DNA of 64,000 bases, from positions 372,001-436,000 of the forward strand of contig NZ_KZ319289.1 of NCBI RefSeq assembly GCF_002744755.1, in the 5' to 3' direction. This DNA comes from Leeuwenhoekiella nanhaiensis (GTDB taxonomy: Bacteria; Bacteroidota; Bacteroidia; Flavobacteriales; Flavobacteriaceae). The notes below the pieces were generated by a model that saw nothing but the letters and a program-made list of their open reading frames with translations, searched no databases and was not told the origin of the DNA. A program made the translations under genes and the position numbers. The stretch's first letter is position 1; every line of letters begins with the position of its first letter. This document shows positions 19,331 through 23,598 of this stretch, piece by piece.

Positions 19331-19558
19331 ATGAAAAAAGCAATTTTATTTCTGACTTTAAGCCTTTCTGCTCTTGCAACTTTTTCATGTAGGGAAGCTG
19401 AAGACAAGGAAAAAGAAACGGTTATAGTAAAAGAAGTTGAAGTTGAAAGACCAGCAGAGCGTGAAGGAATTTTGGAGCGTACTGCTAAGAAAGTAGATCA
19501 GGAAGTTAATAAAGAAATTGATCAGGAGATCGATAACATCGGAGACGATAATAAATAA
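19331..19558 (+). CDS. Small acidic lipoprotein A (CRE family)
   Basis: 75 aa. The signal peptide MKKAILFLTLSLSALATFSC ends in a lipobox, and the mature part begins CREAEDKEKE. The rest is a highly charged, helix-forming chain (VIVKEVEVERPAEREG, then VDQEVNKEIDQEIDNIGDD). It shares the C-R-E start and Glu/Asp-rich helical make-up with three other short lipoproteins at 19566, 22893 and 23362. Lipoprotein B follows after 7 bases, so both are on one transcript ended at 19847. No known function; periplasmic or outer-membrane location inferred from the lipobox. Confidence 0.75.
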   Translation: MKKAILFLTLSLSALATFSCREAEDKEKETVIVKEVEVERPAEREGILERTAKKVDQEVNKEIDQEIDNIGDDNK

Positions 19559-19900: not shown

Positions 19901-20668
19901 TTATTGTAGATTACGCATCTGATTTTTTAATTCTTCCATGCCTTGTTGTAACTCCCGCAACAAACTGCTTTCTGATGGAGCATCAAGGTTAAATGTAAGC
20001 TTGCTGTTAACCTGCCACAATTCCTGAATATCGCTCACCTGCACTTCATAAGGCACGTATTCCTGATTGATCGAAATGAGAAGAACCTTGGAAGGATCGG
20101 GTAACTTCTGCAGTTTTTTAACTACAACGGCATCGGGCATAACCACAACATAAACCTTATTTGAGGTTACCTCATTCATGCTGGCAACAGCTTTCCCCAG
20201 GACCCAGTCATCAGGCATAAAATTAGGCAGCATACTGTCTCCTTCCACCTGAAAACCGCGGTAGGTGGCATTTCGGTATTGTGGAAGCGGCAAATCAAAA
20301 GCCGGTAACTGCTGATACCATTCTACATCCTGAACATTTTGAGGATAACCGGCAGCAGCCTTTTGGTTTACCATCACCAGGTTTTCCTGATCTGCAGAGT
20401 CTACGGTTACCACTTTAGGACTTACGTCTCCTTTACCGGCGTGTAGCAATTTCTGATTGCTGTACCCGAATAACCACAACGGATTTACGTTGTACAGGCG
20501 CAACAATTCGGTGACTATCTGGCCGGACAGTTTTGTTCTTCCACGCTCAATGTCTGCCGTAGAATTTTTAATGCCTAAAGCCTCCGCAAACTCGGTTTGC
20601 GTGAGATTTTGTTCTTCCCGTATCTGTTTAAATCGGCGAATATCGCCAGTTACATCGTTGATTCCCAT
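19901..20668 (-). CDS. LexA/CI-like repressor: XRE helix-turn-helix plus S24 self-cleavage domain
   Basis: 255 aa. Residues 10-70 form an XRE (HTH_3) DNA-binding domain (FKQIREEQNLTQTEFAEALG). Residues about 95-230 are a LexA/UmuD-type S24 domain: a putative Ala106-Gly107 cleavage site in NQKAAAGYPQN, catalytic Ser145 in VEGDSMLPNF and Lys184 in AVVVKKLQKL. All three self-cleavage elements are therefore present, which suggests RecA-stimulated inactivation as in LexA or CI. A short coiled tail (LLRELQQGMEELKNQMRNL) follows. It is divergent from a radical SAM DNA-repair gene with a dyad operator between them, so it likely represses itself and that cassette. No phage genes are nearby. The damage link is inference. 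Confidence 0.9.
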   Translation of the reverse strand: MGINDVTGDIRRFKQIREEQNLTQTEFAEALGIKNSTADIERGRTKLSGQIVTELLRLYNVNPLWLFGYSNQKLLHAGKGDVSPKVVTVDSADQENLVMVNQKAAAGYPQNVQDVEWYQQLPAFDLPLPQYRNATYRGFQVEGDSMLPNFMPDDWVLGKAVASMNEVTSNKVYVVVMPDAVVVKKLQKLPDPSKVLLISINQEYVPYEVQVSDIQELWQVNSKLTFNLDAPSESSLLRELQQGMEELKNQMRNLQ

Positions 20669-20688
20669 AACGTAAAAATAGTATTAAT

Positions 20689-20724
20689 CGGAATAAATCC
20701 TAATTAAAGTTAGGAAAAAATCCG
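20689..20724. promoter_or_regulatory. Dyad operator between repressor and repair genes
   Basis: A 36-bp imperfect palindrome centred at 20706.5: CGGA...TCCTAA-N6-TTAGGA...TCCG. It contains two GGA-N5-TCC sites (20690-20700 and 20713-20723) 23 bp apart. The likely -7 box of the repressor gene on the minus strand (TAACTTTA, 20712-20705, one mismatch to TAnnTTTG) lies at the dyad centre, so binding would block it. A TATTTTCG box at 20743-20750 could serve the plus-strand repair gene. Confidence 0.6.
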
Positions 20725-20840
20725 TAATATGGAAAAATTCTTTATTTTCGTAAATAATCCAAATCTAAGTTCAGCAATTCTTTAGTCATCTGGAATATGT
20801 TGTACGGAAGCCTTCTAAGAGTTGGATAAAAATTGAGGCT

Positions 20841-22100
20841 ATGAATTTTGAGCGCATTCGCGAAAAGTTGAACATACTTGCCGACGCGGCAAAATACGAT
20901 GTGTCCTGCTCCAGCAGTGGTAGCAAGCGAACCAATACAAATAAAGGATTGGGAGACAGTAGTGGGATGGGTATCTGCCATAGCTATACCGAGGACGGAC
21001 GCTGTATTTCACTTTTAAAAATTTTGTTGACTAACCACTGCATTTTTGATTGTGCCTATTGTGTGAGTCGAAAGAGTAATGACATCAAGCGCGCAGGTTT
21101 TAAAATTCAGGAGGTTGTAGATCTTACGATTAATTTTTACCGGCGTAACTACATTGAAGGTTTGTTTTTAAGCAGCGGGATTTTTTCCAGTCCTGATTAT
21201 ACGATGGAGCGACTGATTGCTGTGGCTAGAAAGCTGCGTCTCGAAGAAAATTTCAATGGGTATATACACCTCAAATCTATACCGGGTTGTAGTGATGAAC
21301 TGATGAAAGAGGCGGGGCTTTACGCAGATCGACTTTCGATAAATATAGAGATTCCTACCGTTTCGGGTCTTAAACTTTTGGCTCCTGAGAAAGATCATAA
21401 GGACTTCATCAAGCCCATGGAAACGGTTAAAAACAATATCGCGATCTATAAAAGCGAAAAGAAATTACTGAGAAGTACACCTGTTTATGCACCTGCAGGG
21501 CAAAGCACGCAGATGATTGTTGGAGCGACGGGAGAAAGTGATAAAGATATTATGTACAGTGCGGTGCATTATTACAGCACATATAAGATGAAACGAGTGT
21601 ATTATTCCGGATATGTGCCTGTTTTGGAAGATAACAGACTTCCCGCTTTAGGAACTGAAGTGCCTATGCTTCGCGAAAATCGCTTGTATCAAACCGATTG
21701 GTTACTGCGTTTTTATGGGTTTGATGTTCGCGAGCTTCTCAATAAAGACCATCCCAATCTGGATGTGGATATCGATCCTAAACTCAGCTGGGCGTTGCGC
21801 AATCTGCACCTTTTTCCGGTTGATATCAATAAAGCAGATAAGCGTATGCTTGCTAGAATACCGGGATTGGGAATGAAATCGGTTTATAAAATTTTGAATG
21901 CCCGCAAGTATCGCAAACTGAATTGGGAGCACCTTAAAGCCATTGGGATTGCGATGAATCGGGCTAAGTATTTTATGGTGTGTGATTCTAAAGACTGGGA
22001 ACGCAGGGACCTGGAACCGCAACGCATCAAAAGTATGATTTTGCAAAGCAGCCAAAGCAAGTATCAGAAGATGTACAATCAGCAATTGCAACTTTTCTAA
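20841..22100 (+). CDS. Putative DNA modification/repair radical SAM protein (TIGR03916 type)
   Basis: 419 aa. The radical SAM cluster motif CX3CX2C is Cys67-Cys71-Cys74 in LTNHCIFDCAYC. Further N-terminal Cys at 23, 46 and 55 are typical of this family. The C-terminus (about 327-365) holds a helix-hairpin-helix DNA-binding motif (DINKADKRMLARIPGLGMKS). This matches the family annotated as putative DNA modification/repair radical SAM protein, which occurs next to a DUF4130 protein or a uracil-DNA-glycosylase-like protein. The DUF4130 gene follows after 7 bases. The reaction is unknown; repair of a damaged base by radical chemistry, in the manner of spore photoproduct lyase, is a reasonable inference. 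It is divergent from a LexA-like repressor. Confidence 0.9.
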   Translation: MNFERIREKLNILADAAKYDVSCSSSGSKRTNTNKGLGDSSGMGICHSYTEDGRCISLLKILLTNHCIFDCAYCVSRKSNDIKRAGFKIQEVVDLTINFYRRNYIEGLFLSSGIFSSPDYTMERLIAVARKLRLEENFNGYIHLKSIPGCSDELMKEAGLYADRLSINIEIPTVSGLKLLAPEKDHKDFIKPMETVKNNIAIYKSEKKLLRSTPVYAPAGQSTQMIVGATGESDKDIMYSAVHYYSTYKMKRVYYSGYVPVLEDNRLPALGTEVPMLRENRLYQTDWLLRFYGFDVRELLNKDHPNLDVDIDPKLSWALRNLHLFPVDINKADKRMLARIPGLGMKSVYKILNARKYRKLNWEHLKAIGIAMNRAKYFMVCDSKDWERRDLEPQRIKSMILQSSQSKYQKMYNQQLQLF

Positions 22101-22107
22101 ATAGCTT

Positions 22108-22851
22108 ATGACCAGACTTGTTTACGACGAAACTTTTGAGGGCTTGCTCACCGCCATTTTTCAGGTATATGAGGAACGCCTGCAACAGGTTACTATTATT
22201 CCGGAAACAGACTTACAGCCTGATTTTTTCAGTGAAGATGTCACGGTCTATACCGATACAGGCAAGGCTGATCGCGTTTGGCGGGGATTGAAACCGTTCA
22301 GCCTTCTCAGGCAAATGATTTATAAAGCATATTTGAGAGAAGCATCTGGCGCTGAAAATACAATTTTGGAAGCGGTACGTTATGTCTTAAAAACTAAAAA
22401 TGAGAAGGATTATGGTCATCCGGCGATTTTACAATTGGCGAACTGGACTAAAGAAGTAGGCCGTGAGAAGCATAGGATGGAGGCATTTGTGCGATTTAAA
22501 CGAGCCCAGGACGATACCTATATTGCCGTAATAGAACCTGATTTTAATGTGCTTCCGCTTATTGCCAAACACTTTAAAAGCAGGTACGCTGATCAGGTTT
22601 TTATGATCTATGACCTAAAGCGCAATTATGGAATTTATTACGATCTACAAAAAGTAGATTTTATAAATCTTGATTCTGAAAGGCTAAAAAACCTGGATGC
22701 CATTACCCACGAGGAAGAAAAATGCTACGATGTAATGTGGCAGGATTACTTTAAAAGTACGGGTATCAAAAGCCGGGTGAACAAAAAATTGCATTTAAGA
22801 CACGTGCCCAAACGTTATTGGAAATACTTAAATGAAAAAAATCCATATTAA
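22108..22851 (+). CDS. DUF4130 (TIGR03915) putative DNA repair protein
   Basis: 247 aa, the usual partner of the radical SAM protein above and translated 7 bases after it. Family features include the start LVYDETFEGLLTAIFQVYE, the MIYKAYLREASGAENTILEA helix, HPAILQLANWTKEVGREKHR and the C-terminal CYDVMWQDYFKSTGIKSR and HLRHVPKRYWKYL blocks. In many bacteria this domain is fused to a UdgX-like uracil-DNA glycosylase; here it stands alone with no glycosylase domain. Function is unproven; the joint occurrence with the HhH radical SAM enzyme and the S24 repressor points to DNA damage processing. Confidence 0.88.
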   Translation: MTRLVYDETFEGLLTAIFQVYEERLQQVTIIPETDLQPDFFSEDVTVYTDTGKADRVWRGLKPFSLLRQMIYKAYLREASGAENTILEAVRYVLKTKNEKDYGHPAILQLANWTKEVGREKHRMEAFVRFKRAQDDTYIAVIEPDFNVLPLIAKHFKSRYADQVFMIYDLKRNYGIYYDLQKVDFINLDSERLKNLDAITHEEEKCYDVMWQDYFKSTGIKSRVNKKLHLRHVPKRYWKYLNEKNPY

Positions 22852-22892: not shown

Positions 22893-23096
22893 ATGAAACG
22901 TATTTTTTTAAGTCTAGCGGTGCTTGCAATCGTAGCCACGACCTACTCGTGTAGAGAAACAACTCAGGAAAAAACCGAAGATGCAGTAGAAGCAATAGGT
23001 GAAGACATTGAGAACGCGGCCGAAGAAACGGGTGATGCTATTCAGGAAGGCGCTGATGAACTTAACGATGAAATTCAGGGGAATGATGATATGTAA
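22893..23096 (+). CDS. Small acidic lipoprotein C (CRE family)
   Basis: 67 aa: signal MKRIFLSLAVLAIVATTYSC with lipobox, mature start CRETTQEKTEDAVEAIGED, and an acidic amphipathic helix ending EIQGNDDM. It starts 41 bases after the DUF4130 stop and may be read through from that operon, though an imperfect TAnnTTTG box (TAATTTTA) lies in the gap. It is closely related to lipoprotein D at 23362 (same CRETT..EK.EDA start and E..GNDDM end) but lacks an internal segment of about 11 residues. Function unknown. Confidence 0.75.
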   Translation: MKRIFLSLAVLAIVATTYSCRETTQEKTEDAVEAIGEDIENAAEETGDAIQEGADELNDEIQGNDDM

Positions 23097-23361: not shown

Positions 23362-23598
23362 ATGAAAAAATTTATGTTTAGTGCTTTCGCACTCTTACTA
23401 ATGGTTTCTGTTTCTGCTTGTCGCGAAACAACTGAAGAAAAAGCTGAAGACGCAATGGAAAGTGCTGCTGATGACATGGGTGATGCTATGGATGAAGCAG
23501 GAGACGCTGTTGAAGAAGCTGCTGACGAGACTGAAGCTGCTGTAGAAGAAGGTGCTCAGGAAGTAGAAGACGAAGTTGAAGGAAACGACGACATGTAA
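23362..23598 (+). CDS. Small acidic lipoprotein D (CRE family)
   Basis: 78 aa: signal MKKFMFSAFALLLMVSVSAC with lipobox, then CRETTEEKAEDAMESAADD and an Ala/Glu/Asp-rich helix built of 11-residue amphipathic units (DMGDAMDEAGD, AVEEAADETEA, AVEEGAQEVED), ending EVEGNDDM. It has its own promoter and a strong terminator, so it is a single-gene transcript, possibly abundant given GCT/GAA codon bias. It is the closest paralogue of lipoprotein C. Function unknown; the periodic helix suggests coiled-coil assembly or membrane-surface binding. Confidence 0.78.
   Translation: MKKFMFSAFALLLMVSVSACRETTEEKAEDAMESAADDMGDAMDEAGDAVEEAADETEAAVEEGAQEVEDEVEGNDDM

Follow-up and report, generated by a model that had tools for sequence, protein, structure and literature searches.

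The SOS response of Bacteroidetes is run by repressors that join an HTH_3 domain to a Peptidase_S24 domain and act through one of two operators, GGA-N5-TCC or CTAA-N5-TTAG (Sanchez-Osuna et al. 2021, PMC8565304). In the parts of that paper covered here, the GGA-N5-TCC group is found mainly in the Flavobacteriaceae, gel shifts and mitomycin C induction are reported for the system (the tested regulator is S. agarivorans WP_075324850.1), a phage origin is proposed for this non-canonical LexA family, and a COG1573-COG4277 operon, called a uracil-DNA glycosylase (UDG) base-excision system, is predicted to lie under both SOS motifs. Two other bodies of work, also covered in part, bear on what follows: DUF4130 has been predicted to be a mutagenesis-related enzyme associated with radical S-adenosylmethionine (SAM) and UDG genes (Biol Direct 2013, PMC3765255), and QL[S/D]LF or QxxLF is a sliding-clamp-binding motif (PMC12309361, PMC4549789). 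Our subject is a locus in a 64,000-nucleotide stretch of Leeuwenhoekiella nanhaiensis DNA (hereafter the window; contig NZ_KZ319289.1, positions 372,001 to 436,000), located on contig C3 of the 4.37-Mb genome, in which a repressor gene is divergent from an operon for a radical SAM protein (TIGR03916) and its DUF4130 partner (TIGR03915).

We consider it highly probable that the repressor is an SOS repressor, a non-canonical LexA of the GGA-N5-TCC group, and that the divergent operon is an SOS target. The operon would encode a DNA-repair enzyme that works by radical chemistry, is induced in the SOS response, and is predicted from a motif to be tethered to the sliding clamp. While the DNA is undamaged, LexA dimers on the operator array would block the promoter of the radical SAM operon and probably the repressor's own promoter too. 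Upon DNA damage, RecA filaments would trigger cleavage of the repressor at Ala106-Gly107 (by way of Ser145 and Lys184), releasing the operon together with recA, dinB, umuDC, a SplB-like radical SAM gene, and an exonuclease gene. The radical SAM protein would dock on the replication sliding clamp through a C-terminal QLxLF, hold DNA with its helix-hairpin-helix (HhH) tail, and, with its DUF4130 partner, repair or process a lesion at the fork or behind it by radical chemistry. In the literature found, no reaction is described for the radical SAM/DUF4130 family. The locus mainly adds a clear example of a published mode of regulation with a conserved operator array; the pair occurs in several phyla, and either of the two published SOS operators is found in many Bacteroidota.

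The repressor and its divergent operon

The minus-strand repressor gene (19901..20668, 255 amino acids) and the plus-strand radical SAM operon are separated by a 172-base intergenic stretch. The repressor matches HTH_3 (PF01381; 43.9 bits, cut-off 23) in its N-terminal part and Peptidase_S24 (PF00717; 45.2 bits, cut-off 23.3) in its C-terminal part and falls short of the canonical LexA model TIGR00498 (19.9 bits, with a cut-off of 110.95). An earlier reading of this DNA, made from the sequence alone, had seen a complete self-cleavage set in the protein, and relatives bear this out: Ala106, Gly107, Ser145, and Lys184 are identical in 31/31 aligned repressors (the window protein, 16 from family-sample genomes, and 14 from named genomes). 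By these features, the repressor fits the published non-canonical LexA of Bacteroidetes. It resembles the protein described in the covered parts of PMC8565304 in its HTH_3 and S24 domains, its Ala-Gly and Ser-Lys residues, and its multiple GGA-N5-TCC copies; it differs in being divergent from a radical SAM/DUF4130 operon with a 23/18 operator register, a layout not met in those parts of the paper. The regulation is ordinary for the phylum, already published, and well supported. The suggestion of the sequence-only reading that this is an undescribed system is not supported, the family having been published in 2021 (PMC8565304, in the parts covered), whereas its expectation of damage-inducible control gains support from homology to a published and tested system. 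By the same homology, the window's repressor would be expected to bind, to be cleaved, and to respond to damage in the same way.

The HTH_3 and S24 architecture is also CI-like, and a phage origin is what the covered parts of PMC8565304 propose for the family, so that the protein might be taken for the CI-type repressor of a former prophage, stranded beside host repair genes. We regard this as extremely improbable, given the identical cleavage residues of the 31 aligned repressors, the recurrence of the same layout in 17/30 family loci, and the host SOS regulon described below; among the scanned neighboring open reading frames (ORFs) no phage family was found, the PHROGs library not having been searched. 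A second S24/helix-turn-helix (HTH) paralogue, 28% identical to the window's repressor, is encoded elsewhere in the genome (L044:2155-2889; G000 C2:308166). In its 5-kb locus, no clear published operator was found in the promoter; there is one perfect CTAA-N5-TTAG about 2 kb away and one site with a single mismatch inside the start of the paralogue's own ORF, and these two sites of the CTAA-N5-TTAG type, against 3.04 expected, are not above chance.

The two genes of the operon are identified by profile searches. The radical SAM protein (20841..22100, plus strand) matches TIGR03916 over model positions 1-415 with 666.6 bits (cut-off 343.5) and carries the cluster motif as C67-x3-C71-x2-C74, and its partner (22108..22851, plus strand) matches TIGR03915 with 256.9 bits, above the cut-off, as well as DUF4130. 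The CX3CX2C radical SAM protein and DUF4130 partner first read from the letters are therefore confirmed. The HhH tail assigned to the radical SAM protein is matched at residues 327-356, but its score of 23.1 bits lies under the Pfam cut-off of 27; weak matches to HhH alone are plentiful in one tally of 164, and 93/296 lie above the cut-off. The nearest named relatives of the radical SAM protein are from Flavobacteriaceae, the best being 82% identical (Croceivirga). The 5' leader of the gene (window 20760-20840) is about 74 bases longer than in a congener (L021); an origin of this leader from a repeated element was rejected, as it is present in single copy in the genome.

The divergent arrangement recurs among relatives. 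In a family sample, the radical SAM protein was found in 33/149 genomes (own genome included), and 30 of these 33 loci were examined: a divergent repressor is present in 17/30, all 17 with at least two GGA-N5-TCC sites, and 3 of the 13 loci without a divergent repressor still have at least two sites. Among the loci of named genomes, a divergent repressor is present in 14 of a group of 22 (L076-L096 and L105), of which two (L091 and L095) have no site in the bases examined.

Operators, promoter, and regulon

Two perfect GGA-N5-TCC operators occupy the intergenic stretch: operator 1, GGAATAAATCC (20690..20700, matrix score 19.2), and, 23 bp from it, operator 2, GGAAAAAATCC (20713..20723, matrix score 15.4). 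A decayed third operator, GGAAAAATTCT (20731..20741; GGA-AAAAT-TCT, one mismatch, matrix score 13.6), lies 18 bp from operator 2, at the place held by the third site in relatives, and a -7-like box of the radical SAM operon, TATTTTCG (20743..20750, plus strand), stands at +53 from operator 1, a register common to most relatives. TAnnTTTG is the Bacteroidetes -7 consensus. Because the third site and the box are at their expected places, operators 2 and 3 would overlie the DNA immediately before the -7 box of the radical SAM operon.

This array is conserved as an array. At least two GGA-N5-TCC sites lie upstream of the radical SAM gene in 33/110 loci (30 from the family sample, own genome included, plus 80 named loci). 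The commonest spacing, 23 and then 18 bases, is exact in 11 of these 33, while the others come within a base or two of it or miss one site. Downstream of the first site, a TAnnTTYG box is found in 33/33, and in 29 of them it stands at +52 to +55 (for the spacing and register analyses, the radical SAM start of locus L019 was set by hand).

It had been proposed from the sequence that a single dyad lies between the genes, with the -7 box of the repressor at its center. The dyad exists (20689-20724), but as one element it is symmetric at only 24/36 positions and is better described as two perfect GGA-N5-TCC sites 23 bp apart. As for the central box, TAnnTTTA is present there in the window, but TAnnTT[TC][GA] is found at that place in only 4/26 loci with that spacing, so that it is not supported as the repressor promoter, and the idea of a repressor -7 box conserved at the center of the dyad was rejected. 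It is the -7-like box before the radical SAM operon, on the opposite side of the array, that is conserved. Control of the window's operon through CTAA-N5-TTAG was also rejected: there are 0 matches in the window, the inner CTAA/TTAG having a 6-base spacer.

The two published motifs divide the 80 named loci between them. In the 150 bases upstream of the radical SAM gene, GGA-N5-TCC gives 40 sites in 13/80 loci (shuffle mean 1.27 for all 80) and CTAA-N5-TTAG gives 25 sites in 25/80 (shuffle mean 0.38), and the two never occur in the same locus. All of the GGA-N5-TCC sites fall within the 22 loci named above, which are Flavobacteriaceae by title except for one "Bacteroidia" metagenome-assembled genome, and all of the CTAA-N5-TTAG sites within the other 58, a grouping drawn up after the motif results were known. 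Wrong spacers of 3, 4, 6, and 7 bases give 0 sites for both motifs in the 22 loci; in the 58, GGA with spacers of 3, 6, and 7 gives 1, 2, and 3 sites and CTAA with a spacer of 6 gives 1. Two distinct operator motifs have thus converged upon this one operon.

The same operator marks SOS genes elsewhere in the genome. The scoring matrix was built from 43 distinct sites of other genera, with the own genus left out (the L019 sites are not in the matrix), and was applied to the surroundings of 47 of the genome's 48 GGA-W5-TCC sites (a site on contig C26 was left out), so that the regulon list is a partial one. Thirteen sites reach a score of at least 15, and 10 of these sit at six SOS promoters, those of recA, dinB, umuDC, a PA0069-family (SplB-like) radical SAM gene, a DEDD-exonuclease/UvrC-like gene, and the radical SAM/repressor locus itself; RecA, one DinB model, and PA0069 pass their NCBIfam cut-offs. 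Pairs of sites within 60 bp number 4, compared to 0.03 expected for random placement of 48 sites, and these pairs are at recA, umuDC, the exonuclease gene, and the radical SAM/repressor locus. This motif-based set agrees with the regulon in the covered parts of PMC8565304, likewise comprising recA, dinB, umuDC, the SplB-like radical SAM gene, and the exonuclease. A LexA regulon table of Streptomyces venezuelae also lists a radical SAM gene (PMC9380542).

With the motif before recA, dinB, umuDC, the SplB-like gene, and the exonuclease gene, the radical SAM operon is one SOS target among several. This bears directly on the idea of a small module that escapes classical LexA control, its local S24 repressor responding to damage autonomously and controlling only its divergent neighbor. 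The divergent genes with their shared operators are what such a module would look like, and yet the same operator fronts those five other targets; moreover, a radical SAM gene with SOS sites was found with no neighboring repressor detected in L005, L010, and L012 (1.5-kb flanks) or in L086 and the 25 CTAA-N5-TTAG loci (flanks up to 4 kb). The autonomous module was rejected on the regulon evidence, and we would now call it very unlikely.

The DUF4130 partner and the glycosylase question

We take COG4277 to be the family modeled by TIGR03916. The two-gene operon in the covered parts of PMC8565304 appears to be the radical SAM/DUF4130 pair; it too comprises two genes predicted to lie under an SOS motif. 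It differs in its partner, which at the present locus is DUF4130 only, with no UDG domain. The association in the covered passages of PMC3765255 is similar in placing DUF4130 beside a SplB-like radical SAM gene, whereas the operator and the clamp motif seen here are in neither case part of those passages.

The label of a UDG system was put to a domain scan of 61 of the 78 partners (77 from named loci plus the window's), nearly all from Bacteroidota with a few from proteobacterial records. DUF4130 is present in 61/61 and the UDG domain (PF03167) in 0/61, so that the published "UDG" label does not describe these proteins; the absence of the domain from the scanned partners seems to be a new observation. 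The genome's own two UDG-superfamily genes are on other contigs, and no GGA-N5-TCC was found at them in the loci examined. Elsewhere, the glycosylase does accompany the pair: in Paracoccus and Phaeobacter, the radical SAM gene is followed by one that encodes DUF4130 fused to UDG and is annotated UdgX, and the Ketogulonicigenium partner is annotated UdgX as well (by annotation only). The link to UdgX drawn in the sequence-only reading accordingly holds for the two alphaproteobacterial partners scanned and fails for the window's partner and 60 others.

The fusions and annotations in these alphaproteobacteria, along with the 2021 label and the family name rSAM_link_UDG, are what could be said for viewing the operon as a uracil-DNA glycosylase base-excision system. 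Against it stand the 61 partners without the domain and the placement of the genome's own UDG genes, which lack the operator in the loci examined. We consider such a system improbable, and the partner scan led to the rejection of base excision by UDG as the core role of this operon. The shared core appears instead to be the radical SAM protein plus DUF4130, with a glycosylase added in some other groups; a partner free of UDG hints that the pair's essential part lies elsewhere than in the glycosylase. A search of the DUF4130 profile against solved structures gave nothing below an E value of 0.05 (best 0.059, S100-A6). In the DUF4130 protein, 36/61 partners have a QxxLF-like stretch close to residue 37 (37-41); as a possible second clamp motif it was set aside, being too variable to claim.

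The tail and cysteines of the radical SAM protein

The radical SAM protein of the window closes with QLQLF (residues 415-419; 22083..22097, plus strand), a predicted sliding-clamp-binding motif (PMC12309361 and PMC4549789, in the parts covered). QLxLF is the last conserved element of the family: Q is found in 110/110, the first L in 106/110, the second L in 108/110, and F in 110/110, compared to 22-48% conservation for the seven residues before it. In all, 51/110 radical SAM proteins end exactly in QLxLF, as against 0/706 other ORFs of the named loci, and a relaxed pattern no more than three residues from the end is found in 93/110 and 1/706, respectively (the 706 controls are mechanical ORFs of at least 100 amino acids, many of them not genes). 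The tail is kept with small changes in 7/8 plasmid- or phage-labeled records from other groups (QLSLF, QLALF, QLKLF, QLALI, QLQLL, QLSLI, and QLSLGF). Among 16 further Bacteroidota loci, 7 have QLxLF, 2 have QLTLW or QLQLTF, and 6, from a single distant family, show QLxLPG or QMVLF tails.

These tails resemble the clamp-binding motif in the covered parts of PMC12309361 and PMC4549789 in being a QLxLF at or near the end of the protein. They differ in that the motif is described there for polymerases and transposases and is here carried by a radical SAM protein. A literature search for a radical SAM protein with a sliding clamp or clamp-binding motif found no such case, most subscription papers lying outside the search, and the apparent docking tag looks new. 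By its motif, the radical SAM protein would be predicted to dock on the sliding clamp via QLxLF. The PA0069-family SplB-like radical SAM protein of the same genome (L038:2040-3116; C1 from 217139) ends in QLSLF, and a Q[LM]xLF end is present in 30/30 of the PA0069-family relatives examined (L204-L233, 30 loci from the 71/120 genomes with a match). Because this second protein is SOS-linked here and shares the tail, radical SAM enzymes of the SOS response may dock on the clamp as a rule.

Beyond CX3CX2C, three cysteines of the radical SAM protein (C23, C46, and C55) are invariant in 110/110. A second iron-sulfur cluster at these residues is possible; the three cysteines seem new, no literature search having been made on a second cluster. 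The radical SAM profile gave weak RuvA/ComEA-like and radical SAM core matches only when searched against solved structures (best 0.0021). For TIGR03916 as a whole, we see about even chances that it is a clamp-tethered radical SAM repair enzyme of the SOS response, possibly with a second cluster, acting with DUF4130 at the fork, and that docking may extend to SOS radical SAM proteins in general.

Tethering to the clamp would also suit an enzyme that lays down a mark behind the fork, and the NCBIfam name speaks of modification/repair. The radical SAM protein might then modify undamaged DNA, leaving an epigenetic or protective mark under stress, rather than repair lesions. We think this unlikely, as SOS control shared with recA and error-prone polymerases is more in keeping with repair and no PADLOC defense family matches the pair. 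A role in phage defense was rejected on similar grounds, there being no PADLOC family for the pair and only a generic HTH match for the repressor.

The SOS-induced repair enzyme that we favor has evidence to answer on both the regulatory and the protein side. GGA-W5-TCC is not over-represented in the genome (48 sites versus 63 for a reversed control pattern), and single GGA-N5-TCC sites are not enriched in the window (8 seen versus 10.8 expected); it is close pairing and position that carry the signal. Of the 13 high scorers, three lie away from SOS genes: one is before threonine synthase, one falls in the gap separating an HTH gene from one judged by eye to be peptidase-like, and one is inside an unassigned ORF. 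The NCBIfam matches of UmuC, UmuD, and the exonuclease are clear but fall below the curated cut-offs. Neither published motif was found in the 150 bases upstream at 42/80 named loci, including Chryseobacterium, Acinetobacter, and Psychrobacter records and, in the 58-locus group, four Flavobacterium records, Capnocytophaga, and Paenimyroides, so that SOS control of the radical SAM gene is common and not universal. An upstream GGA-N5-TCC is present at only 4/30 PA0069-family relatives. The tail is missing from L194, one of the 16 further Bacteroidota loci, and from a Gemmatirosa match of the plasmid search (31% identity), in which the cysteine pattern is missing too. Finally, the clamp motif spans few residues, and something other than clamp binding could account for its conservation.

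For the SOS-induced repair enzyme, a clamp-docking tail would point to where in the cell to look, and with a UDG-free partner the question of the substrate becomes directly testable. One phage-labeled record, that of Acinetobacter phage MD-2021a (L187), has the radical SAM gene and a "probable DNA metabolism protein" beside glyS/glyQ, and given these neighbors it is probably mislabeled host DNA. In the window itself, small charged lipoprotein-like ORFs flank the locus on both sides (19331-19558, 22893-23096, and 23362-23598). They have similar N-termini (MK... and SCRE or ACRE), and the two downstream ORFs match Ag473/PG1828-type models below the cut-off.

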